Assembly: GCF_001579805.1 (NCBI RefSeq)
Contig: NZ_CP014546.1
Location: 4,154,001 to 4,218,000 of the forward strand
Direction: 5' to 3'
DNA: 64,000 bases
DNA from: Pseudomonas azotoformans
GTDB taxonomy: Bacteria > Pseudomonadota > Gammaproteobacteria > Pseudomonadales > Pseudomonadaceae
Each line of letters begins with the position of its first letter. Position 1 is the stretch's first letter. The notes under the pieces were generated by a model. That model saw nothing but the letters and a program-made list of their open reading frames with translations, searched no databases and was not told where the DNA came from. Both the position numbers and the translations under genes were made by a program. This document shows, in pieces, positions 1 through 10,999 of this stretch.

Positions 1-2873
1 CGGCATTCGACGCCAGCACCATGGACGTGTGGGGCCCGCTGCTCAACGGCGGCCAGGTGCAGGTGATCGACCACGCCACCTTGCTGGATCCTGCAGCCTT
101 CGGCGTGGCCTTGGCGGACGCAACGGTGCTGTTCGTCACCACGGCCTTGTTCAACCAGTATGTGCAGCTGATTCCCCAGGCCCTGGCGGGCTTGCGCATC
201 CTGCTATGCGGCGGCGAGCGTGCCGACCCGGCCGCCTTCCGCAGCTTGTTGGCCCAGGCGCCCGCGTTGCGCCTGGTGCATTGCTATGGGCCGACCGAAA
301 CCACCACCTACGCCACCACCTATGAGGTGCGCGCGCTGGCCGAGGAGGCCGACAGCGTGCCGATCGGCCGGCCAATTTCCAATACGCAGATCCATGTGCT
401 GGATGCGCACCTTCAGCCAGTGCCTGTGGGCGTGACCGGTGAAATCTGCATCGGCGGGGACGGCGTGGCCCTGGGGTATCTGAATCGACCTGATCTCACC
501 GCTGAAAAGTTTGTACGGGATCCGTTGAGTGAGGGCGCCTTGATGTACCGCACCGGCGACCTCGGCCGTTGGACGGCGGATGGCCTGCTGGACTGCATCG
601 GGCGCAATGACGACCAGGTGAAGATCCGTGGTTTCCGCATCGAACTGGGCGAGATCGAAGCGCGCCTGGCGACCTTCGCCGGTATCCAGGACGTGGTGGT
701 GCTGGCTCGCGAAGATGCACCGGGCGACAAGCGGCTGGCGGCCTATTTCACCTGGGCTGATCAGCCTGTCGACCTCGACAGCGTGCGCGCCTATCTGCAA
801 AGCCAATTGCCGGAGTACATGGTGCCGTCGGCCTTTGTACCGCTGGATCACCTGCCGTTGACCGCCAACGGCAAGGTCGACCGCAAGGCCTTGCCGGTGC
901 CGGCCCTGGACACGTTCAACCGCCGTGAGTTTGAAGCACCGGCCGATGGACTGGAACACACCCTGGCCCAGCTATGGACCGAGGTGCTGAAGCTGGAGCA
1001 GGTTGGTCGCCATGACAGTTTCTTCGAGTTGGGCGGGCATTCATTGCTGGCGATCCGGCTGGTCAACCTGATGGAAGAAGCGGGGTTGCAGGTGTCCCTG
1101 GCTGAGCTGTTCCAGCATGCCAGTGTGGCGTCCGTTGCCGCGATGCTGCGCCAGCGTACGGATGAGCCGGTGCGTGACATGTCGGTGATCAAGGTACGCA
1201 GCGGTGGTTCGCAAGCGCCGTTGTTCCTGGTCCACGAATTCAGCGGCATGGACGTGTATTTCCCGGCGCTCGGCCAGCATCTGCCGGGTGACTATCCGAT
1301 CTATGGCTTGCCGGGCGTGGCGCTGGGCGAACCGCATCTGAACACGATGGAAGGTCTGGCTGCGCGGCTGGTCGGGTTGATCCGAGGCATTCAGCCCCAT
1401 GGGCCTTACCGGGTTGCCGGGTGGTCATTCGGCGGAGTGCTGGCCTATGAAGTGGCGATGCAACTGCTCGGGCTGGATGAACCGGTTGAGTTCCTCGGCT
1501 TGATCGACAGCTACGTACCGCGCATGACTGACCAGGGCAAGGCGCGATGGAGCGGGCCGGACGCGCTCAAGCGGCATTTGCTGTTGCAGTGCACGGCGCA
1601 TTGGAAAGCACAGGGAGGTGTGGATGAACTGGCGAGCCTTGGGCAGTTGGAGGCGAAGGTTGGACAGCTGGACTTTGCAGGCCTGTTGCAACGTTGTCGC
1701 GATGAAGGTGTGCTGCACGCGCAAATGGCAGCGGCGACGGATGCGGACCTCTTGAACTATATCGAGCGGGAAGTGGGGCATGGGCATGCGCTGGCCCATT
1801 ACAGCCTGTTTCCGTTGCCGATCGCGGTGCATCTGTTCAGCGCGAGTGAGCGGCCGACCGAGTTGTCGCGGCGCAGTGAAACACTGGGTTGGAATGAGGT
1901 GTTGGCGCCGGGGCAATTGCGCCAGGCGGCGGTGCCGGGGGATCACCAGAGCATGATGCAGGCGCCGCATATCCAGGCGCTGGGTCGGGCGATGGCTGAG
2001 GCCTTGGTGACGTGCACGCCGCAGGTTCAGGCACCGCATCAGCCCTTGCTGCGGATTCAGAGTGGCCGGGCAGGGTATGCGCCGGTGTTCTGTGTGCCGG
2101 GGGCGGGGGACAGCGTCACCGGGTTTATTGGCTTGAGTGAAGCGCTGGGACGCGATTGGCCGTTGTTTGGCTTGCAGCCGCGTGGGTTGGACGGTGAGGC
2201 GGTGCCTCATAGTCAGGTGGAAGTGGCGGCGGCTTGTTACTTGAAGGCGTTGGAGCAGGAGTGTCCGCAGGGGGCGGTGCATTTGGTGGGGCATTCGTTT
2301 GGCGGCTGGGTTGCGCTGGAGATGGCGTTGCGGTTGCAGGCGGCGGGGCGGGAGGTGGCTTCGTTGACGGTGATTGACAGTGAGTCTCCGGAGCGCGCCG
2401 TCAGGCCTTATACGACGACGGCTGCGTTGATGCGGTTGATTGAGGCGATGCAGTTGTCTGCGGGTATGTCGCTGGGGATTGATCTGGGGGATTTTGCAGG
2501 AGCGGATGAGGTGGCGCAGCGGCGGCAGTTACACGCAGGGATGGTTGGCGTTGGTCTGTTGCCGGGGCGGTCGGCTGTGGATGCGATGGATGGGCCGGCG
2601 CGGACTTATGCGGCGGCGTTGCGTACGCGGTATCGGCCGGGTGCGCGATTTAACGGTGTGGTGCGGTTGGTGTTGGCTGAGGATCCGGCGTTGGATGCGG
2701 CGGGGAATCAGCGGGAGCAGGGGGGGATGGTTGAGGGGTGGAGGCGGCAGGGGAGTGGGTTGCAGGTTTGGTATGGCGGGGGGAATCACTTTACGTTGCT
2801 CAAGGCGCCCAATGTTTTGGGGTTGGCGCGGTGGTGGGTGGATGGGGTTGTTGTTGGGGAGGTGGTGTCTTGA
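1..2873 (+). CDS. Non-ribosomal peptide synthetase, C-terminal end: A (partial)-T-TE-TE
   Basis: The frame is open at the left edge, so this is the end of a larger synthetase; residues are counted from the Met at 21. It starts inside an adenylation domain (FDAST core just upstream of 21, YGPTE at 89-93, YRTGDL near 176, NGKVDRKALP near 283). A carrier domain follows (LGGHS, pantetheine Ser341), then two thioesterases: TE1 with GWSFG Ser469, Asp496, His642 and TE2 with GHSFG Ser759, Asp786, His923. Both triads look intact. The visible specificity positions align by eye to D-A-M-F-L-G-C-T-Y, suggesting a branched aliphatic residue (inference). Tandem terminal thioesterases are typical of Pseudomonas cyclic lipopeptide synthetases, where they release and cyclise the product. 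macA, macB and a luxR gene follow, as in viscosin and massetolide loci. The last 300 bases are extremely G-rich on the coding strand. Confidence 0.95.
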   Translation, partial: AFDASTMDVWGPLLNGGQVQVIDHATLLDPAAFGVALADATVLFVTTALFNQYVQLIPQALAGLRILLCGGERADPAAFRSLLAQAPALRLVHCYGPTETTTYATTYEVRALAEEADSVPIGRPISNTQIHVLDAHLQPVPVGVTGEICIGGDGVALGYLNRPDLTAEKFVRDPLSEGALMYRTGDLGRWTADGLLDCIGRNDDQVKIRGFRIELGEIEARLATFAGIQDVVVLAREDAPGDKRLAAYFTWADQPVDLDSVRAYLQSQLPEYMVPSAFVPLDHLPLTANGKVDRKALPVPALDTFNRREFEAPADGLEHTLAQLWTEVLKLEQVGRHDSFFELGGHSLLAIRLVNLMEEAGLQVSLAELFQHASVASVAAMLRQRTDEPVRDMSVIKVRSGGSQAPLFLVHEFSGMDVYFPALGQHLPGDYPIYGLPGVALGEPHLNTMEGLAARLVGLIRGIQPHGPYRVAGWSFGGVLAYEVAMQLLGLDEPVEFLGLIDSYVPRMTDQGKARWSGPDALKRHLLLQCTAHWKAQGGVDELASLGQLEAKVGQLDFAGLLQRCRDEGVLHAQMAAATDADLLNYIEREVGHGHALAHYSLFPLPIAVHLFSASERPTELSRRSETLGWNEVLAPGQLRQAAVPGDHQSMMQAPHIQALGRAMAEALVTCTPQVQAPHQPLLRIQSGRAGYAPVFCVPGAGDSVTGFIGLSEALGRDWPLFGLQPRGLDGEAVPHSQVEVAAACYLKALEQECPQGAVHLVGHSFGGWVALEMALRLQAAGREVASLTVIDSESPERAVRPYTTTAALMRLIEAMQLSAGMSLGIDLGDFAGADEVAQRRQLHAGMVGVGLLPGRSAVDAMDGPARTYAAALRTRYRPGARFNGVVRLVLAEDPALDAAGNQREQGGMVEGWRRQGSGLQVWYGGGNHFTLLKAPNVLGLARWWVDGVVVGEVVS

Positions 2874-3027
2874 GCGGGTTGTTTGGGTACATATCCGTTT
2901 CTTCGGTAACGGCGGCTTATGGTTCCGCTCTTACAGCGGCTCACTTTTGGAAAGGCCCAAAAGTAAGCAAAAGGCCTTCGCCCCACCACTCGGCACCTCG
3001 CCTAGGCTCGGTGTGCCCTCACTCCGG

Positions 3028-3112
3028 CTTTGGAGCGTGGGCCGCCGCGATGGGCCATCCTTGGCCCAGCGCGGCTAACCCGGCGTCCTGCCGGGTTACC
3101 CACGCTCCAAAG
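3028..3112. repeat. Three-way-junction fold, copy A (left arm of element I)
   Basis: The outer stem CTTTGGAGCGTGGG (3028-3041) pairs with its complement ending at 3112. Inside are two hairpins: one with GCCGCG/CGCGGC and TGGGCCA/TGGCCCA stems separated by an A-G mismatch, and one with AACCCGGC/GCCGGGTT closing a five-base loop. Compared with copies B to D the outer stem sequence differs on both sides together, so pairing is kept. Confidence 0.8.
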
Positions 3113-3225
3113 CCTGCGTTCGGCCAGCGTGGTTTTACGGGGCGCCGAAGATCAAAAGCCAAAGCAAAAGCAGAGCGCGGCGGCCTTAGAGCCGACCGGT
3201 ATTGTGTGGTCGAGCCCGGTCAAAT

Positions 3226-3310
3226 GTGGGAGCTGGCTTGCCTGCGAATGTATCGCCTGGGTCTATCTGATTCACCGAGGTGTATGTATCGCAGGCAAGC
3301 CAGCTCCCAC
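3226..3310. repeat. REP doublet in the centre of element I
   Basis: Two inverted copies of a Pseudomonas REP (GTGGGAGCTGGCTTGCCTGC type, at 3226-3247 and 3289-3310) enclose about 41 unrelated bases. This REPIN arrangement sits between the two arms of element I. The subtype differs from the GCTCGCGA subtype found at the same place in element II. Confidence 0.9.
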
Positions 3311-3433
3311 AGAAAAGCAATTTGCGGCGCACAAAAAAACGCCTTTGATCCAACCACTCAAGCCGGCTGTCAGGCCGCTGTGCTTTTGATTTTGATCTTA
3401 GGCGCCCCGTCAAACACGCTGGCCGAACGCAGG

Positions 3434-3518
3434 CTTGAATCCGTGGGTAACCCGGCAGGACGCCGGGTTAGCCGCGCTGGGCCAAGGATGGCCCATCGCG
3501 GCGGCCCACGGATTCAAG
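3434..3518. repeat. Three-way-junction fold, copy B (right arm of element I)
   Basis: This is an inverted copy of the fold. Its outer stem is CTTGAATCCGTGGG (3434-3447) paired with 3505-3518. The two inner hairpins are the same as in copy A, read from the other strand. The outer stem differs from copy A at several positions, each change matched on the opposite arm. Confidence 0.8.
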
Positions 3519-3677
3519 CCGGAGTGAGGGCACACCAAGCCTAGGCGAGGTGCCGAGTGTTGGGGCAAGAGCCTTTTGGTTACTTTTGGGCTCTTTTCAA
3601 AAGTGACCCGCCGTAAGGGCGGAACCCATATCACCCGTTACCTAAATAACGGATATGTACACGACCAAAGGCCACCC

Positions 3678-4829
3678 ATGGAAAAGTCAAAGCTACGCAA
3701 ACTAGGAATGCTCACGGTAATCACAGTCGCCATAGGCCTAATCATCTACACGGTCCAAGCTCCCGCCGACGCACCGCAATACCTCACCGCCACCGCCTCA
3801 CGCGGCAACATCGAAAACGCCGTCCTCGCCACCGGCCTGCTCGAAGGCATCAAACAGGTCGACGTCGGCGCCCAAGTCTCCGGCCAACTGAAATCCCTCA
3901 AAGTCAAAGTCGGCGACAAGGTCAAAAAAGGTCAGTGGCTGGCCGAAATCGACCCATTGATCCTGCAAAACACCCTGCGCAAAGCCCAGGTCGACGAAGA
4001 AAACCTCCAGGCCCAACGCCGCGCCACCGCTGCCCAACTCAAGCAGGCCAAGTCCGTGTACGAACGCTACAAAGGTCTGCAGATTGACGAATCGGTCTCC
4101 CGTCAGGACTTCGAAGACGCCGAATCCACCTTCCAGGTGCAACAAGCCAACCTCTTGTCCCTGGACGCGCAAATCAAAAGCGCCCACATCCAGATCGACA
4201 CCGCCAAAGTCAACCTGGCCTACACCCGCATCGTCGCGCCCATCGACGGTGATGTAGTGGGCATCGTCACCCAGGAAGGCCAGACCGTGATCGCCAACCA
4301 ACTGGCGCCGGTACTGCTCAAGCTGGCGGACCTGGACACCATGACCGTCAAGGCCCAGGTCTCCGAGGCGGATGTGATTCACATCAGCCCCGGCCAGCAG
4401 GTGTACTTCACCATCCTCGGTGAGGCCGACAAGCGCTACTACGCCAAGCTGCGCGGCACGGAACCGGCGCCGCAGAACTTCCTGGAAACCCAGACCGCCG
4501 GCACGCCGAAGCAGAACACGGCGGTGTTCTACAACGCACTGTTCGACGTACCCAACCCCGACCACCGTCTGCGCATCGCCATGACCGCCCAGGTACGTAT
4601 CGTACTCGACACTGCCGAGGCCGCGCTGATGGTGCCGGTGGCGGCGCTGGGGGCGCGCAACAACGACGGCAGTTACTCGGTGCGGGTGCTGGACGCGAAA
4701 GGCAAGGCAGTGTCGCGGGAGGTGAAGACCGGGATCAATAACAATGTGAAGGTGCAGATCCTCGAAGGCCTGGCCGAAGGCGACAACGTGGTGATCGGCG
4801 ACGCCACGCCGGCTGTGGCGGGGAACTGA
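3678..4829 (+). CDS. macA: MacA-type periplasmic membrane-fusion protein
   Basis: A 383-residue HlyD/MacA-family adaptor linking the MacB inner-membrane transporter to an outer-membrane channel. A single N-terminal membrane anchor (about residues 7-25) is followed by a lipoyl/barrel-sandwich segment (VGAQVSGQLKSLKVKVGDKV), a long coiled-coil hairpin rich in Gln, Ala and Lys, and beta-barrel and membrane-proximal domains. The frame extends upstream into the repeat element, but the Met at 3678 is chosen because it has an AAAGG ribosome site and directly precedes the anchor. It is three bases from macB. Placement after a tandem-thioesterase synthetase suggests export of the lipopeptide. The first 200 codons use A- and C-ended codons unlike the G/T-ended codons at the synthetase end. 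Confidence 0.93.
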   Translation: MEKSKLRKLGMLTVITVAIGLIIYTVQAPADAPQYLTATASRGNIENAVLATGLLEGIKQVDVGAQVSGQLKSLKVKVGDKVKKGQWLAEIDPLILQNTLRKAQVDEENLQAQRRATAAQLKQAKSVYERYKGLQIDESVSRQDFEDAESTFQVQQANLLSLDAQIKSAHIQIDTAKVNLAYTRIVAPIDGDVVGIVTQEGQTVIANQLAPVLLKLADLDTMTVKAQVSEADVIHISPGQQVYFTILGEADKRYYAKLRGTEPAPQNFLETQTAGTPKQNTAVFYNALFDVPNPDHRLRIAMTAQVRIVLDTAEAALMVPVAALGARNNDGSYSVRVLDAKGKAVSREVKTGINNNVKVQILEGLAEGDNVVIGDATPAVAGN

Positions 4830-4832
4830 CGG

Positions 4833-6791
4833 ATGACTCAGCCACTGCTGGAACTCAAGGGCATCACCCGCAGCTTCATGGCCGGCGAGCGCGAATTCAT
4901 CGCGCTCAAGGGCATCGACCTGACGATCCATGCCGGGGAAATGGTCGCGATTATCGGCGCCTCAGGCTCAGGGAAATCGACCCTGATGAACATCCTCGGC
5001 GGCCTGGATTATGCCACGGCCGGCAGCTACAAGATCAACGGCATCGAAACCCGCTCCCTGGGGGATGAGCAGTTGGCCGAACTGCGCCGCGATTACTTCG
5101 GTTTTATCTTCCAGCGCTACCACTTGCTGGCGCACCTGAGTGCCTTGCACAACGTGGAAATGCCGGCGATCTATGCCGGCACTCCGGAAACCCAGCGCCA
5201 CAGTCGTGCACGGGAGTTGCTCGCGCGGCTGGGCTTGTCCGGTCACACCACCCATCGTCCCAGCCAGCTCTCCGGTGGCCAACAGCAACGGGTGAGTATC
5301 GCCCGCGCCTTGATGAACGGCGGCGAAGTGATCCTCGCCGACGAGCCCACCGGCGCCCTCGACACCCACAGTGGCAAAGAGGTGATGCGTATTCTCGCCG
5401 AGCTGCACGCGGCGGGGCACACGGTGATTATCGTGACCCACGACCCCAAGGTTGCGGCGAATGCGCAGCGTATCGTCGAGGTGAGCGATGGCGAGATTGT
5501 CAGCGACAAGGCCAATGAGCGTGCTGGCCTGGAGTTGCCCAGCGAAACACCCATCGAGCCAAAACGCAGCGGCGCCCGGCGCTTGGTGGCGAGCCTGGGG
5601 TTGTTCAAGGAAGCCTTCAACATGGCCTGGGTCGCGCTGGTGTCTCACCGCATGCGCACCTTGTTGACCATGCTCGGTATCGTCATCGGCATTACTTCGG
5701 TGGTGTCGATCTCGGCCATCGGCGAAGGCGCCAAGCGTTATGTGCTCAAGGACATCCAGGCGATTGGCAGCAACACCATCGATATCTTTTCCGGCACCAG
5801 TTTTGGCGACAGCCGCGCCTCGGCCATCGAGACCTTGATGCCTTCGGACGTGGACGCGTTGAACCAGCTGTATTACGTCGACAGCGCCACGCCGGTGGTG
5901 GGCCGCAACCTGTTGCTGCGCTTTGGCAATATCGACCTGGATGCGCAGGTGAATGGGGTGAGTGACCGCTACTTCAAGGTGAAGGGACTCAAGCTCGAAG
6001 CCGGTATCGCCTTCAGCGAAAGCGATGCACGGCGCCAGGCCCAGGTGGTGGTGATCGACCACAACACCCGTCACCGATTGTTCGGCCCGAACGTTGACCC
6101 GCTGGGTCAGGTGATCCTGGTGGGAAACCTGCCGTGTACCGTGATCGGGGTCACCGCTGACAATAAGAACATGTTCGCCGCCAGCAAGGCGTTGAACGTA
6201 TGGGTGCCCTATGAAACAGCAGCGGGGCGTTTGCTGGGGCAGCGCCATCTGGACAGCATCACGGTGCGTATCAAGGACGGCCAGCCAAGCAAGGTGGTGG
6301 AAGACAATGTCAACAAGCTCATGCTGCAACGCCACGGCACCAAGGACTTCTTTACCAACAACCTCGACAGCATCATGCAGACCGTGCAGAAAACCAGTCG
6401 CTCCCTGGCGTTGCTGCTGTCGTTGATCGCGGTGATTTCGTTGCTGGTGGGGGGCATTGGCGTGATGAATATCATGCTGGTGTCCGTCACCGAGCGTACC
6501 CGTGAGATCGGCATTCGCATGGCGGTGGGGGCGCGGCAGTCGGATATCCGCCAGCAGTTCCTGGTGGAGGCGGTGATGGTGTGTTTGATCGGCGGGCTGA
6601 TCGGGATCTCGCTGTCCTACGCCTTGGGCTTTCTGTTTTCGTTGTTTGTGAAGGAATGGGAAATGGTGTTTTCCCTGGGCTCGATCATCACGGCGTTTGC
6701 CTGTTCGACGTTGATCGGCATTGTGTTCGGCTTTGTGCCGGCCAGGAATGCGGCGCGGCTGGACCCGATCGAGGCGTTAGCAAGGGACTGA
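4833..6791 (+). CDS. macB: MacB-type ABC exporter (ATPase and permease fused)
   Basis: A 652-residue macrolide/lipopeptide-type exporter. The N-terminal ATPase has Walker A GASGSGKS at 42-49, a Q-loop near FIFQR, signature LSGGQ at 146-150, Walker B VILADE at 166-171 and an H-loop THD. After a linker a first membrane helix (about 275-297) leads to a large periplasmic domain, then three helices near residues 525-645, the standard MacB layout. It begins three bases after macA, so the two are co-transcribed. In cyclic-lipopeptide loci of Pseudomonas the equivalent pair is implicated in lipopeptide secretion. The substrate here is inferred from context. Confidence 0.95.
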   Translation: MTQPLLELKGITRSFMAGEREFIALKGIDLTIHAGEMVAIIGASGSGKSTLMNILGGLDYATAGSYKINGIETRSLGDEQLAELRRDYFGFIFQRYHLLAHLSALHNVEMPAIYAGTPETQRHSRARELLARLGLSGHTTHRPSQLSGGQQQRVSIARALMNGGEVILADEPTGALDTHSGKEVMRILAELHAAGHTVIIVTHDPKVAANAQRIVEVSDGEIVSDKANERAGLELPSETPIEPKRSGARRLVASLGLFKEAFNMAWVALVSHRMRTLLTMLGIVIGITSVVSISAIGEGAKRYVLKDIQAIGSNTIDIFSGTSFGDSRASAIETLMPSDVDALNQLYYVDSATPVVGRNLLLRFGNIDLDAQVNGVSDRYFKVKGLKLEAGIAFSESDARRQAQVVVIDHNTRHRLFGPNVDPLGQVILVGNLPCTVIGVTADNKNMFAASKALNVWVPYETAAGRLLGQRHLDSITVRIKDGQPSKVVEDNVNKLMLQRHGTKDFFTNNLDSIMQTVQKTSRSLALLLSLIAVISLLVGGIGVMNIMLVSVTERTREIGIRMAVGARQSDIRQQFLVEAVMVCLIGGLIGISLSYALGFLFSLFVKEWEMVFSLGSIITAFACSTLIGIVFGFVPARNAARLDPIEALARD

Positions 6792-6814
6792 TCCCTCACA
6801 AACGATGAAGATCA

Positions 6815-6846
6815 AATGTGGGAGCTGACTTGCCTGCTCCCACATT
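6815..6846. terminator. Hairpin between convergent macB and luxR genes
   Basis: An 11-bp perfect stem, AATGTGGGAGC at 6815-6825 with its complement at 6836-6846, closes a 10-base loop and is followed by CTTTCT. It resembles a single shortened REP and lies between two convergent genes, so it could serve as a two-way terminator. Confidence 0.55.
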
Positions 6847-6860
6847 CTTTCTGCGGTGGC

Positions 6861-7544
6861 TTAAAGGGCTGTGGTGTCCTCAGTGGCATACATCCACCGC
6901 AACAACGAATGCCGCCCGCTGATCCCCAGCTTGATCGACGCGCGCTTGAGGTAGCTCTCGATGGTGTTGACCTTCAACGCCAACTGCTCCGCCAGCTCCG
7001 GCGCCGTGCGCCCGGCCAACAGGCCCACGCACACCTCAAGCTCACGGTTGGACAAGGTCAGTCCAGACTGCACCAAGCGTTCTTCAATGCGCCTGCGCAG
7101 GGCTTCGAGGCCCTGGTTTTCCGGCGCTACCGGGTCGCTGTCCTGGCGGCACGGTTGGATCGCGGCGATGTGCTTTTCCACCATGGGCAGCAACAAGGTG
7201 GAGAAGTCCTGCAATATGCTGCGCTCCTGGGGCGAAAAGCTTTCGGACTGGTGCGAGCGATACACCGACAACACGTAGCGCACGTCATCCTTGCGGCGGG
7301 TGAGGTGCAATTGCGCGGCGGGTTGTTCGTCGCCCAACGCTTCCACCGAATCGGTGTAGACCGGGCTGATCTTGCGGCGGGTTTGCCCGTCGGCGTTGAC
7401 CTGCAATTGCGTGATATGGGTGGCGTCCACTGCCAGTTGGGTGAGGATCAGGTCATGCAGCATGCGTGGGAAATGGCGGCTGCCGGTGCTGGCGATGACT
7501 TTGCCAATATGAGGGAACAGCTGTGAGTTCATCATTTCGTCCAT
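6861..7544 (-). CDS. LuxR-family regulator linked to lipopeptide genes
   Basis: A 227-residue protein with a C-terminal LuxR/FixJ helix-turn-helix (about 165-225; LSNRELEVCVGLLAGRTAPE, then VNTIESYLKRASIKLGIS). The N-terminal half shows no autoinducer-binding or receiver-domain motifs I can recognise. It lies convergent to macB, where ViscBCR/MassBCR-type regulators sit in viscosin and massetolide loci. Those LuxR proteins lack a signal-binding domain and activate lipopeptide synthesis under Gac control. The same role here is inferred from position and size. Two nearby Met codons (residues 4 and 5) are alternative starts. Confidence 0.85.
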   Translation of the reverse strand: MDEMMNSQLFPHIGKVIASTGSRHFPRMLHDLILTQLAVDATHITQLQVNADGQTRRKISPVYTDSVEALGDEQPAAQLHLTRRKDDVRYVLSVYRSHQSESFSPQERSILQDFSTLLLPMVEKHIAAIQPCRQDSDPVAPENQGLEALRRRIEERLVQSGLTLSNRELEVCVGLLAGRTAPELAEQLALKVNTIESYLKRASIKLGISGRHSLLRWMYATEDTTAL

Positions 7545-7687
7545 GAGGCGTGCAGGTATTCGGCCTTATAGCGACGGGGATTAAGATGCAAGCCAATGCG
7601 AATAACCTACCGTGATAGTCCTTCCCGCCGGAACCTATGCTAGTACAGCCTGGCGACGGGAAGGGGATCCAATCTTAAAAAAACGGA

Positions 7688-8923
7688 TTAAACACTTACC
7701 GGCTTAGAAGCACGCGTCACCGTACGTGTGCATTTGGCCAGTGCCTGCTGCACGTCCGCCAGCAGATCGGCCACGTCCTCAAGCCCCACCGACAAGCGCA
7801 CCAGCCCTTCGCTGATCCCGTGCGCCGCACGCTCCTGCGGGGTGTAGGTGGAATGGGTCATGCTCGCCGGGTGCTGGGCCAGTGACTCCGCGTCACCCAG
7901 GCTGACCGCACGGGTGAACAGCTTGAGTGCATTCATGAAACGCCGACCGGTTTCGATGCCGCCCTTGAGTTCGAAGGCAATCATGCCGCCGGGCAGTTTC
8001 ATCTGCTGTGTCGCCAGTTCGTACTGGGGGAAAGAACGCAATCCTGGGTATGTCACCCACTGCACGGCCGGGTGCGCCTGTAGGGCTTCGGCCACCGCCT
8101 GGGCGTTGCTGCAATGACGATCCATGCGCAGCGCCAGGGTCTTGAGGCCGCGCATCAACAGCGAGGCGTCCTGTGGCGACATCACTGCGCCGGTCAGGTC
8201 CTTGAGGCCTTGCAGGCGAATGCGTTGGGCCAGGGCCAGGCTGCTCACGGCGATGCCCGCGGTGATATCGCCGTGGCCGCTGAGGTACTTGGTGGCCGAA
8301 TGCACCACGACGTCGGCGCCCAGGTCGAGGGGGCGTTGCAGGTAGGGTGTGCAGTAGGTGTTGTCGACGACCAGGGTGACATTTGGCTGCTGGTGGGCGA
8401 GGGCGGCTACGGCGGCGATGTCCACCAGTCGCAGGTTGGGATTGGCCGGGGTTTCACAATAGATCATGCGGGTGGCGGGGCTGAGAGCGGCTTGCAGGGC
8501 TTCGAGGTCGGTGAGGTCGACATGCCGCACCTTGATACCGAATTCACCGATGCCATGGTGCAGCAGGGCAAAGGTGCAGCCGTACAGGGTCTGGCTGACG
8601 ATCACCTCATCACCGGGGCGCAGCAGGGTCCAGAACGTCGCGGCAATCGCACCCATGCCTGAGCTGAACGCCACGGCTGCTTCACCATTTTCCAAGGTGG
8701 CCATGCGTGATTCCAGCAGCGCCAGGGTCGGGTTGGAAATACGTGTATAGAAGTGGCCGCTCGCTTCGCCGGCAAAACAGGCGGCGCCGTATTCAGCGGT
8801 TGGGAACGCAAAGGTGGCTGACAGGTAAATCGGCGGGACGAGTGCGCCGTGGTGGTCTTTTGGGTCATAGCCGTGGTGGATGGCGCGGGTGGAAAAGCCG
8901 AATGCATTGTGTTTATTGTTCAT
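7688..8923 (-). CDS. mdeA: Methionine gamma-lyase
   Basis: A 411-residue PLP enzyme of the Cys/Met-metabolism family that splits L-methionine into methanethiol, 2-oxobutyrate and ammonia. Residues marking methionine gamma-lyase rather than cystathionine enzymes are present: Tyr59 and Arg61 (FYTRISNPT), Tyr114 and Cys116 (TLYGCTFALLHHG), and the PLP lysine in SATKYLSGHGD (Lys212). Length matches the P. putida enzyme, about 398 residues, with a slightly longer C-terminus. It is divergent from an Lrp regulator across a 123-bp AT-rich gap, the arrangement of mdeA-mdeR in P. putida. It releases sulfur as methanethiol, which fits the organosulfur genes elsewhere in the window. Confidence 0.95.
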   Translation of the reverse strand: MNNKHNAFGFSTRAIHHGYDPKDHHGALVPPIYLSATFAFPTAEYGAACFAGEASGHFYTRISNPTLALLESRMATLENGEAAVAFSSGMGAIAATFWTLLRPGDEVIVSQTLYGCTFALLHHGIGEFGIKVRHVDLTDLEALQAALSPATRMIYCETPANPNLRLVDIAAVAALAHQQPNVTLVVDNTYCTPYLQRPLDLGADVVVHSATKYLSGHGDITAGIAVSSLALAQRIRLQGLKDLTGAVMSPQDASLLMRGLKTLALRMDRHCSNAQAVAEALQAHPAVQWVTYPGLRSFPQYELATQQMKLPGGMIAFELKGGIETGRRFMNALKLFTRAVSLGDAESLAQHPASMTHSTYTPQERAAHGISEGLVRLSVGLEDVADLLADVQQALAKCTRTVTRASKPVSV

Positions 8924-9046
8924 GTCGGACGCTCCTTATTTCCTACAATGCTATGCTCATAACCAGAGATGAACTTTGCAATATTTGCTGCTGGTTCCTG
9001 TGTTTTTGGATGAAAACCTCATAAAAATAATGAATAGAGGCACGTT
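8924..9046. promoter_or_regulatory. Divergent control region of mdeA and mdeR
   Basis: This AT-rich gap separates two divergent start codons. mdeR has a GAGG ribosome site at about 9034. Lrp-type activators usually bind such regions, and the P. putida MdeR protein activates mdeA. No single operator sequence was assigned with confidence. Confidence 0.5.
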
Positions 9047-9517
9047 ATGCCTGTCAGTCTGGATCGCACCGATAAAGCACTTTTAAACGCGTTGCAGGGC
9101 AATGCCCGTCTCACGGTGGCTGAATTGGCTGACCGCGTTTCCTTGACGACCTCGCCGTGCTGGCGGCGCGTGCGCAACCTGGAAGAGAGCGGGGTGATCA
9201 GTGGGTATCAGGCGATTCTCTCACCCAAGGCATTGGGGTATGGGGTGACGGCGTTTGTCAGCATCATGATGGAGAGTCACACCCAGGAAATCGCTCGGGC
9301 ATTTGAGCAGCGGTTGTTGGAGATTCCGGAGATTGTGGCGTGTCATAACGTGTCCGGGCGCTATGATTTTTTGTTGGAAGTGGTGGCGAAGGATCTGGAG
9401 TCGTTTGGGGGGTTTGCGCGGGAGGTGTTGCAGACGTTGCCTTGCGTCAAGGAGATTTATTCGAGTTTTTCTTATAAGTCGGTTAGGGCGTTGAGGGTGA
9501 TTCCGTTGCCGGGGTGA
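9047..9517 (+). CDS. mdeR: Lrp/AsnC-family regulator, probable activator of mdeA
   Basis: A 156-residue Lrp-type regulator. The N-terminal winged helix (about 5-60; DRTDKALLNALQGNARLTVA, then TSPCWRRVRNLEESGVI) is followed by a RAM ligand-binding domain (about 68-150). Size and architecture are normal for the family. It is divergent from methionine gamma-lyase, the known mdeR-mdeA arrangement, so methionine or a related amino acid is a reasonable effector (inference). The last 250 bases become very G/T-rich on the coding strand, with many GGG, GTG and TTG codons, up to the border of repeat element II. Confidence 0.88.
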   Translation: MPVSLDRTDKALLNALQGNARLTVAELADRVSLTTSPCWRRVRNLEESGVISGYQAILSPKALGYGVTAFVSIMMESHTQEIARAFEQRLLEIPEIVACHNVSGRYDFLLEVVAKDLESFGGFAREVLQTLPCVKEIYSSFSYKSVRALRVIPLPG

Positions 9518-9693
9518 TGGGGGATGGTGTGGTGTTGTGTGTTGTGTTGTGTACATATCCGTTGCTTCGGTAACGGCTACTTATGGTTCCGCTCTTACAG
9601 CGGGTCACTTTTGGCAAACGCCCCAAAAGTAACCAAAAGGTCTTCGCCCCAACACTCGGTGCCTCGCCTAGGCTCGGCATGCCCTCACTCCGG

Positions 9694-9778
9694 CTTGAAT
9701 CCGTGGGCCGCCGCGATGGGCCATCCTTGGCCCAGCGCGGCTAACCCGGCGTCCTGCCGGGTTACCCACGGATTCAAG
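9694..9778. repeat. Three-way-junction fold, copy C (left arm of element II)
   Basis: The outer stem CTTGAATCCGTGGG (9694-9707) pairs with 9765-9778. The inner hairpins are those of copy A. This copy matches copy B of element I read from the opposite strand. Confidence 0.8.
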
Positions 9779-9881
9779 CCTGCGTTCGGCCAGCGTGTTT
9801 GACGGGGCGCCTCAGATCACAAGCAAGAGCGCGGCGGCCTAGTAGCCGACCGTTTTTTGGAAGCTGGTCTCAGTTTCAAAT

Positions 9882-9968
9882 GTGGGAGCGGGCTTGCTCG
9901 CGAAGGCGGCGTGTCAGCGATTGCATCTCTAACTGATCCACCGCTTTCGCGAGCAAGCCCGCTCCCAC
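9882..9968. repeat. REP doublet in the centre of element II
   Basis: Inverted REPs of the GTGGGAGCGGGCTTGCTCGC type lie at 9882-9903 and 9947-9968. They occupy the same central place as the different REP subtype in element I, and match the free-standing doublet at 16612-16698. Confidence 0.9.
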
Positions 9969-10074
9969 AATTTAGATCTCAGGTACACATCAATCTGCTC
10001 TGGCTCTGGCTCTGGCTCTGGCTTTGCTTTTGATTTTGATCTTAGGCGCCCCGTCAAACACGCTGGCCGGAATT

Positions 10075-10168
10075 CGGCAGGGATTTGGGGGGTAAACCGG
10101 CAGGGATGCCGGTTTAGCCGCCCCGCGCCATGGATGGCGCGTGGCGGCGGCCCCCCAAATCACTGTCG
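10075..10168. repeat. Three-way-junction fold, copy D (diverged, right arm of element II)
   Basis: The outer stem is CGGCAG plus GATTTGGGGGG (10075-10092) paired with CCCCCCAAATC plus CTGTCG (10151-10168). The inner hairpins are AAACCGGC/GCCGGTTT and GCCGCC-CGCGCCA/TGGCGCG-GGCGGC, with a single mismatch at the same place as in the other copies. The primary sequence differs widely from copies A to C, yet every stem is preserved. Confidence 0.8.
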
Positions 10169-10408
10169 GATTACGGGCACACCGAGCGTGAGCGAGGTGC
10201 CGAGTGTTGGGGCAAGAGCCTTTTGGTTACTTTTGGGCTCTTTTCAAAAGTGACCCGCCGTAAGGGCGGAACCAATACCAGCCGTTACCCAAATAACGGA
10301 TATGTACTCAACCCAACCCAACCCCAAACAGCACGTACATCCAATTTTCCCCACCCCAACCCCCGCAAACTCCCTCATCGCTGAAACATCAAGGCAGAGG
10401 GACACCCC

Positions 10409-10999
10409 ATGGACCCAGCAACAAAACCAGCCCCCGACGAAGTCGTCACCCTGGTGGTCAAACACCTCATCAAACCAGGCCGGGAAGCCGACTACGAAGC
10501 CTGGCTACGCCGCATCGTACGCATCGCCGGCGACCGCCCAGGCCACCTCGGTGTCGACGTGGTGCGCGGCAAGCAAGGCAACCTTGCGCTGTTCACCTGC
10601 GTATTACGCTACCGCTCCACCGAAGACCTCGAAACCTGGCTCGACTCCCCCGAACGCAAAACCCTGGTCGCCGAAGCCACCCCCATGCTCGCCGACGGCG
10701 ACAACACCGAAATCGGTGCGGTCAACGAATTCTGGTTCAACCCCATAACCGAAAACGCCGCCAAGCCGCCACGCTGGAAGCAGGCCGTGGTCACCCTGTT
10801 CGTGATCCTGCCGCTGACCCTGCTGGTGCCGATCATCTGGGGCCCGGTACTGCGCCTGCACCCGTTCCTCTCCCATTACGTGGTCGCCACCTTCCTGATC
10901 ACCCTGACTATCGTGTTGCTGGTGGTTTACCTGTTGATGCCGGCCGCCACCCGCCTGTTCGCCCCCTGGCTTGAAGCCTCTGCAAAGGAAACCCTATGA
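10409..10999 (+). CDS. Antibiotic-biosynthesis-monooxygenase-fold membrane protein
   Basis: A 196-residue protein with an N-terminal ABM-type ferredoxin-like domain (about 10-105; VKHLIKPGREADYEAWLRRI and GHLGVDVVRG). Two membrane helices follow near 130-150 and 160-180. ABM domains joined to two C-terminal helices are widespread in proteobacteria and their substrates are unknown. The stop codon overlaps the next start by four bases (ATGA), so it is translationally coupled to the amidohydrolase. It lies just downstream of repeat element II, and its first 100 codons are conspicuously rich in C- and A-ended codons. Confidence 0.8.
   Translation: MDPATKPAPDEVVTLVVKHLIKPGREADYEAWLRRIVRIAGDRPGHLGVDVVRGKQGNLALFTCVLRYRSTEDLETWLDSPERKTLVAEATPMLADGDNTEIGAVNEFWFNPITENAAKPPRWKQAVVTLFVILPLTLLVPIIWGPVLRLHPFLSHYVVATFLITLTIVLLVVYLLMPAATRLFAPWLEASAKETL

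Follow-up and report, generated by a model that had tools for sequence, protein, structure and literature searches.

The DNA analyzed here (hereafter, the window) is a stretch of 64,000 nucleotides from the genome of Pseudomonas azotoformans (contig NZ_CP014546.1, positions 4,154,001 to 4,218,000; this genome is denoted G000, and a window position equals the G000 coordinate minus 4154000). Near its start, the window carries two intergenic elements of the same kind, A and B, each containing two copies of a three-way-junction fold. The right flank of element A reaches the start of a HlyD/MacA-like gene, and element B is located between the 3' part of an AsnC/Lrp-type gene and the start of an ABM-domain gene. 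The repeated fold is already catalogued in Rfam as the TwoAYGGAY family (RF01731), an identity that was missed in the preliminary description of this DNA. Here we characterize the fold, the element that carries it and the base-composition footprint that surrounds the element.

The four positions assigned to the fold in the preliminary description all coincide with cmscan matches to RF01731, with scores of 49.0-59.1 bits against a gathering score of 43. Folding was performed for six strands, namely, both strands of the copies at 3425-3527 and 10059-10185 and, for the remaining two copies, the sense strand; all six form the shared three-way junction, with minimum free energies (MFE) of -75.8 to -88.4 kcal/mol. 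Their z-scores range from -7.9 to -10.3, and 200 shuffled sequences included none as stable. The junction consists of two hairpins on a shared stem, one simple and the other interrupted by a 1x1 mismatch, and this mismatch, noticed earlier in one of the inner hairpins, is present in every folded strand. For the copy at 3425-3527, the two strands yield -76.7 and -75.8 kcal/mol; for the copy at 10059-10185, the antisense strand is less stable than the sense strand by 10 kcal/mol. The defining feature of RF01731, two AYGGAY-like hairpin loops on a common stem, is found in the window copies, with the strict AYGGAY motif present only in part (three of the copies have AAGGAT and CAGGAC loops). The first and third copies are on the minus strand, so that the two folds of each element face away from one another. 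The compensated differences between the outer stems were recovered, and the right-arm copy of element B, in which both inner hairpins had been described as rewritten (copy D), folds as claimed. Because three of the four copies have identical inner hairpins, the window contains few independent compensatory events, and the claim of covariation was therefore tested on more copies.

Two MAFFT alignments were used: A1, which includes 25 distinct Pseudomonas copies aligned without structure information, with the structure derived by RNAalifold, and a larger alignment, from which a tree was built, of 83 distinct copies drawn from 108 matches at 62 loci, including one antisense match that was retained. 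In A1, 24 of the 37 structure pairs show changes on both sides and 97.3% of the cells pair, compared to 31-44% for slid structures; when the structure was slid by 1-3 columns, just 6-10 pairs had both-side changes, and none of the five measures was reached by any of 500 shuffles. Under a tree-based null model (an R-scape-like procedure in our own implementation, with substitutions redistributed on the tree 100 times), 14 of the 34 structure pairs in the 83-copy alignment were significant at E<0.05, and in the test of all column pairs, the six significant ones were all within the fold. The contention of the preliminary description that compensatory change reflects a maintained structure thus stands against shuffles, slid controls and the tree-based null, and the fold appears to be an evolutionarily maintained RNA shape.

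The preliminary description left undecided whether the structure is selected in RNA or in extruded DNA; the present observations favor RNA. G-U and A-C are equivalent mismatches in DNA, so that an excess of G-U argues for the sense RNA. In the sense-strand structure across the 83 copies, there are 112 G-U cells vs 5 A-C cells (17 vs 2 pairs); the antisense-derived structure, which shares 32 of 35 pairs, gives 82:61 cells and 15:5 pairs; the bias keeps its direction, and how strong it is depends on the few pairs not common to the sense- and antisense-derived structures. The mismatch columns of hairpin 2 form a standard pair in 11 of the 83 copies and are unpaired in the remaining 72, which also points to RNA because copying at the DNA level (template-switch correction) would tend to remove a mismatch. 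The stable GGA loops described below favor RNA over extruded DNA as well.

The fold is an arm of a multi-copy palindrome of about 770 bp in Pseudomonas that resembles miniature inverted-repeat transposable elements (MITEs). The order of features is end, inward-facing terminator-like hairpin, fold, REPIN (paired repetitive extragenic palindromic, REP, sequence) or its remnant, fold, hairpin, end. G000 contains 42 RF01731 matches (41 above the cut-off), 30 of which form 15 pairs, and all 15 pairs are oriented outward, with the left copy on the minus strand and the right copy on the plus strand. The terminal inverted repeat (TIR) pattern GTACATATCCGTTNNTNNGGTNACGGC, with up to three mismatches allowed, has 46 matches in G000, compared to 0 for the reversed pattern. 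Elements with two folds and without an insertion sequence (IS) are 711-799 bp long; the variant copies in G000 include eight one-armed ones, one 364-bp derivative, and fused and fold-less ones. The features that characterize MITEs, multiple copies, inverted terminal repeats and the lack of a gene of their own, were all observed, the sole transposase seen within the elements being that of an inserted IS. The element is missing in relatives at nine aligned sites; no clear target-site duplication was found at eight sites whose junctions were set against empty relatives. Among the paired TIRs of G000 (longest span 2042 bp), the only genome searched in this respect, there is no autonomous element with the same ends. 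Genome G017 contains elements at a spacing that matches A and B, and in G017 and G111, the distance between the pieces that flank the 364-bp element corresponds to that of a full element.

The element as a whole is not a REPIN, that is, a unit of two REP palindromes: the REPIN occupies only its center. An exact-pattern REPIN is found inside seven elements of G000, and a REP pair or its remnant is present in most of the 14 cores inspected by eye. A REPIN is often located at the same intergenic site in element-free relatives (loci L164-L166, L246, L248, L250-L252 and L255). Insertion of the arms around a resident REPIN was considered as a possible origin in view of the REPINs at several empty sites, but the REPIN cores of the different elements look shared by eye. 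Possible deletion derivatives were observed as well: at L069:8740-8860, halves of two folds are fused, as if by an inter-arm deletion, and at L068:12700-12770 (G000:4360208), there is a lone short palindrome of two element ends only, possibly a deletion scar, with a G-rich left flank and a C-rich right flank. A search with the first 112 nt of an IS that encodes an rve-type transposase located this IS in four full places in G000, all four inside elements and all at the same motif, GTAACCA|CCAAAA: L067 (G000:4234250), L069 (4543970), L078 (5894866) and L082 (6261260), which suggests that this IS targets the repeat site-specifically.

The fold is widespread in the genus: the covariance-model search put forward in the preliminary description, performed with a model of the 25 copies (E<=0.001, strict filters, up to 18 candidates scored per genome), produced matches in 166 of the 199 Pseudomonas genomes searched. 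In the class, RF01731 is found in 14 of 229 genomes including G000 (12 above the cut-off), several of them multi-copy, and in 0 of 14 control genomes. An exact search of named genomes with part of the arm yielded at least 117 stretches, and all of the 80 matches listed come from Pseudomonas; two stretches of viral contigs match the arm. Partial arm copies are present in three places at NZ_CP015601.1:58031-58175, a Pseudomonas antarctica plasmid, the one such case among 72,556 plasmid records. Three adjacent fold copies were detected at L043 and L117 in G015, another Pseudomonas, with a repeated GCGAAACCAG-type sequence alongside at L043, apparently a different arrangement of the TwoAYGGAY family. 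Outside Pseudomonas, the folds (L221, L230 and other loci) are likewise multi-copy, and the inverted ends and GTGACTTTTTG...CAAAAAGTCAC hairpin of L221 resemble those of the Pseudomonas element, so that the element architecture may be common to the class.

The GGA of the apical loops is nearly invariant, in contrast to the stems of the fold. In the Pseudomonas copies, GGA is present in loop 1 in 81 of 82 cases and in loop 2 in 81 of 83 while the stems turn over; the preceding base is T, A or G, and in both window copies checked the two GGA are 28 nt apart. The 27 copies from other genera (from 13 genomes; six of the copies score under the RF01731 cut-off) have GGA in 46 of 56 hairpin loops, with at least one in each of the 27 copies and two in 19, compared to 0 of 56 loops on the antisense strand. 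The CsrA/RsmA consensus consists of AnGGA with flanks of this kind, and the fold looks like a bait for this global regulator. CsrA (PF02599) genes were found in all 14 carrier genomes examined, including three in G000. In the available part of the respective publications, the CsrA motif is described by the authors of Rfam as a short GGA-hosting hairpin that usually occurs in pairs (PMC4383904), and TwoAYGGAY was put forward as a CsrA-binding RNA by Gardner and Eldai (PMC4333381).

Beyond each end of the element, the outward strand is poor in G and rich in C and A over a distance of up to about 800 bp. Measured as GC and TA skew on the strand running toward the element over the 300 bp adjoining the TIR, this footprint is found around every element end in G000 (positive GC skew in 46 of 46 flanks) and recurs in G017 (21 of 22 flanks) and three further genomes (10 of 12), compared to 252 of 520 random positions. 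It is present in all 70 usable flanks (of 80 ends) of the named Pseudomonas loci and in 32 of 33 loci with a recognizable TIR in other Pseudomonas genomes (two of these are the same copy). The pooled GC skew in G000 decays from 0.65 (0-25 bp) to 0.20 (300-500 bp), 0.09 (500-750 bp) and about 0.01 past 1 kb, and the TA skew runs in parallel; at the 33 loci, the outward strand is still slightly negative in the 600-1200 bp zone (median -0.05), and at ten loci without a recognizable TIR the median is -0.02, with 9 of the 10 below zero. The footprint accompanies the TIR: at the one-armed copies, the skew is positive on the TIR side in 8 of 8 cases (0.16 to 0.42) and ranges from -0.16 to 0.23 on the opposite side, where two of the eight are positive (0.15 and 0.23) and the pooled value is 0.13 within 100 bp and about 0 farther out. 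In the AsnC/Lrp-type gene next to element B, the GC/TA skew of the last third is 0.51/0.40 vs 0.01/0.21 in the element-free genome G004; the right flank of B has no alignable relative among those compared.

Table 1. Features of elements A and B and of their surroundings, in window coordinates (skews are GC and TA skew)
Feature	Position	Strand	Details
Element A, MITE-like palindrome, 774 bp, ends GTACATATCCGTT...AACGGATATGTAC	2887..3660	.	TIR matches G000 4156887-4156913(+), 4157634-4157660(-)
Element B, same kind, 757 bp	9551..10307	.	TIR matches G000 4163551(+), 4164281-4164307(-)
TwoAYGGAY junction, left arm of A	3019..3121	-	RF01731, 49.0 bits
TwoAYGGAY junction, right arm of A	3425..3527	+	RF01731, 49.9 bits; MFE -76.7, z -9.6
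TwoAYGGAY junction, left arm of B	9685..9787	-	RF01731, 49.9 bits
TwoAYGGAY junction, right arm of B, rewritten copy D	10059..10185	+	RF01731, 59.1 bits
GGA of apical loop 1, copy 3425-3527	3458..3460	+	Loop 2 GGA 3486-3488, 28 nt on
GGA of apical loop 1, copy 10059-10185	10104..10106	+	Loop 2 GGA 10132-10134, 28 nt on
REPIN, center of A	3226..3310	.	Pattern match G000 4157226-4157310
REPIN, center of B	9882..9968	.	Pattern match G000 4163882-4163968
Terminator-like hairpin, inward-facing, left end of A	2925..2939	+	Weak
Terminator-like hairpin, inward-facing, right end of A	3607-3623	-	Weak
Terminator-like hairpin, inward-facing, left end of B	9588..9604	+	Weak
Terminator-like hairpin, inward-facing, right end of B	10254-10270	-	Weak
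Left footprint of A, G/T-rich, C-poor plus strand	2287..2886	+	GC 0.54, TA 0.37, nearest 300 bp
Right footprint of A, outward strand C/A-rich, G-poor	3661..4260	+	Inward GC 0.22, TA 0.36, 300 bp
Left footprint of B, 3' part of AsnC/Lrp-type gene	8951..9550	+	GC 0.46, TA 0.34, 300 bp
Right footprint of B, start of ABM-domain gene	10308..10907	+	Inward GC 0.30, TA 0.32, 300 bp

Several alternative causes of the footprint were considered. Gene direction or gene 3' ends are not the source: the footprint is seen both with genes running toward the element (43 of 44 flanks) and, more weakly, with genes running away (33 of 35), and element-free gene pairs (28 convergent, 132 codirectional and 42 divergent) have a small local skew at most. 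At the element-free convergent gene ends, the GC skew amounts to 0.16 over 100 bp, drops to 0.05 at 100-300 bp and is weakly positive in 47 of 56 flanks, and there is no TA skew. REPINs were dismissed as the cause because the skew at 14 REPINs outside elements (28 flanks, 23 of them weakly positive, median 0.07) is confined to 200 bp; a first version of this control included 2 flanks only, and the control with perfect-stem terminators yielded 0 cases. Converging replication forks are unlikely given that both flanks of one element are affected. A target preference for skewed sites was rejected as well: the skew in G000 exceeds that in every empty relative at 17 of 17 flanks of nine elements.

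The changes that are private to G000 in comparison with the empty relatives aligned at these nine sites (one of the sites on one side only) reveal how the composition shifted. On the inward strand, within 600 bp of the element, these changes comprise C>T 188/2185, C>G 105/2185, C>A 20/2185, G>A 37/2468, G>C 18/2468, G>T 29/2468, A>G 57/1425 and T>C 19/1487; at 600-1500 bp, the respective counts are C>T 128/3487, C>G 62/3487, C>A 16/3487, G>A 104/3653, G>C 44/3653, G>T 28/3653, A>G 43/2202 and T>C 31/2204. Thus, near the element, the loss of C is increased, G>A and G>C are decreased, and T>C is unchanged. Around an element shared by G000 and G017, the changes that each acquired on its own within 800 bp amount to 10 and 10 for C>T/C>G and to 1 and 3 for G>A/G>C, small counts which suggest that the formation of the footprint is continuing.

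In genes running toward the element, C>G at fourfold sites amounts to 42/160 (far, 15/294) and C>T to 17/160 (far, 22/294), and C>T at twofold sites to 45/133 (far, 31/241), a pattern suggestive of selection against G on the outward strand. In genes running away, the values are 26/175 (far, 25/194) for C>G and 19/175 (far, 8/194) for C>T at fourfold sites and 19/106 (far, 13/114) for C>T at twofold sites, and here plain C>T fits too. Plain cytosine deamination was judged less likely, given the difference between fourfold and twofold sites in genes running toward the element and the drop in G>A, and symmetric double-strand breakage at the palindrome was dropped in view of the one-armed copies, which are skewed on the TIR side only. 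We lean toward selection rather than mutation as the cause of the footprint. A mutational bias filtered by codon selection is a possible alternative, considering that the contrast between fourfold and twofold sites was sharper with three elements than with nine and is absent from genes that run away from the element.

These observations can be accommodated in a scheme to which we give slightly more credence than doubt: the TwoAYGGAY folds would be the outward-transcribed arms of a multi-copy MITE-like palindrome that act as CsrA/RsmA-binding decoys or as CsrA-controlled transcripts. Each arm would be a small RNA unit, transcribed from a putative promoter outward through its TIR; the two GGA hairpins of one arm would hold one dimer of the CsrA/RsmA family; and the dispersed elements would serve as decoys or regulated transcripts, perhaps to the benefit of the element or of the host. 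With less confidence, we propose that transcription leaving the element favors a G-poor, C/A-rich outward strand, with fewer R-loops and more Rho loading; selection on outward transcripts would explain the footprint. A stronger version, in which the element reshapes its neighborhood after insertion, driving up to about 0.8 kb of unrelated flank, coding or not and whatever the gene direction, to a G-poor, C/A-rich composition of the outward strand, with each TIR end acting on its own and as though selection for Rho loading or R-loop avoidance operated on outward transcripts, is tentative and, in our assessment, rather doubtful; if true, the response of a genome to an outward-firing mobile promoter would be legible in sequence.

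A number of findings weigh against this scheme. A consensus scan, which did not cover other promoter types, detected no sigma-70-like promoter in elements A and B. In other genera, 8 of the 27 copies do not reach two GGA loops, and loop 1 is shortened (CA-GGACG) in 17 of 82 Pseudomonas copies. The co-occurrence with CsrA is weak evidence because CsrA is common in the class. The element persists where the fold is lost or fused (L068, L079, L069 and the G017 ortholog of 2885338), so the fold is not needed to retain the element in place. To these can be added the lower G-U excess of the antisense-derived structure and the changes in genes running away, which look more like plain C>T; furthermore, which RNA, if any, is selected cannot be read from the footprint. 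TwoAYGGAY, which Rfam assigns to the type Cis-reg, was scored as probably not cis-regulatory in the available part of Weinberg 2010 (PMC2864571).

A palindrome of this design might also be selected as DNA, with the junction acting in extruded form or as a single-stranded hairpin, in transposition or as a substrate of hairpin-nuclease cleavage, and with breakage and resection producing the flank asymmetry. This agrees with the junction forming from both strands at 3425-3527, with the deletions or fusions within and between folds in several copies, and with the predominance near the element of C>T and C>G on the inward strand, as exposed single strands might yield; in genes running away, moreover, fourfold C>T rises near the element and C>G hardly does. 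We nevertheless regard it as unlikely. G-U is tolerated above A-C, the sense strand of copy D is the more stable one, and breakage at the fold should affect both sides of the one-armed copies, whereas the asymmetry is found on the TIR side, with the opposite side pooling to about 0 past 100 bp; nor would one-way damage alone be expected to make G>A rarer near the element or to generate the fourfold and twofold pattern of genes running toward it.

An improbable reading, in our view, is a portable bidirectional terminator or insulator, the ends of which would halt transcription from the neighbors, with the RNA fold as a by-product: although A and B have inward-facing terminator-like hairpins at both ends, the elements are intergenic and the footprint accompanies the TIR end, the terminator-like sites (three in the stretch of A and two in B) are close to the shuffled mean of 1.3 (standard deviation 0.9-1.0), the footprint persists with genes running away, and the conserved GGA loops and the sense-strand G-U pairs would be left unexplained. 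We likewise assign little probability to a selfish repeat with a functionless RNA, in which the covariation would result from DNA template-switching that copies one side of a stem onto the other. Template-switch correction occurs in many-copy near-palindromes, and the element provides this setting, but the mismatch that stays unpaired, the persistent G-U pairs, the nearly invariant GGA loops over variable stems and the presence of TwoAYGGAY in 13 of the 228 other genomes of the class (11 above the cut-off) all speak against such an origin.

The TwoAYGGAY family, described in 2010 and, in the available part of the literature, still considered to be of unknown function in 2014, now has a concrete carrier, a mirror-paired repeat arm. 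If CsrA/RsmA is bound, a global regulator would be tuned by how many elements there are, and transposition could spread this capacity. As a sequence signal, the footprint is strong and replicated and has a defined direction and decay; whether mutation or selection is responsible, each element is a natural experiment with matched empty sites, which makes it possible to test strand-biased mutation, R-loop avoidance and the control of stray transcription by Rho.

All four window copies resemble the known TwoAYGGAY RNAs in scoring above the gathering threshold and in having two hairpins with AYGGAY-type loops. This family is listed, in the available part of the source, as a probable RNA of the human gut, gammaproteobacteria and Clostridiales (PMC2864571); a mobile repeat, mirror pairs and flank effects, which are seen here, are not mentioned in the available literature on the family. 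The RNA family is thus already known, whereas the mobile mirror-pair arrangement and the footprint were not found in the literature searched, to the extent that it was available. With RsmX/RsmY/RsmZ and CsrB/CsrC, the fold shares the presence of two or more GGA-bearing hairpin loops in each molecule; here, in contrast, there are two sites per unit, with dozens of chromosomal units in a mobile element and the RNA only predicted, so that the fold is, in loop design, like a CsrA/RsmA-sequestering RNA and is not classed as one. Among the intergenic repeats of P. fluorescens (Silby et al. 2009; PMC2718517, available part), R178 (101 bp, with an internal 11-bp inverted repeat) and R200 (320 bp) fit in size the fold (about 100 bp) and one arm (from about 330 bp), respectively, and may represent them. 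From MITEs and REPINs, the element differs in that no autonomous partner was seen in G000, there is no clear target duplication and the arms are not REP sequences; it resembles them in being short and multi-copy, with inverted ends and no gene of its own, and it harbors REPINs inside.

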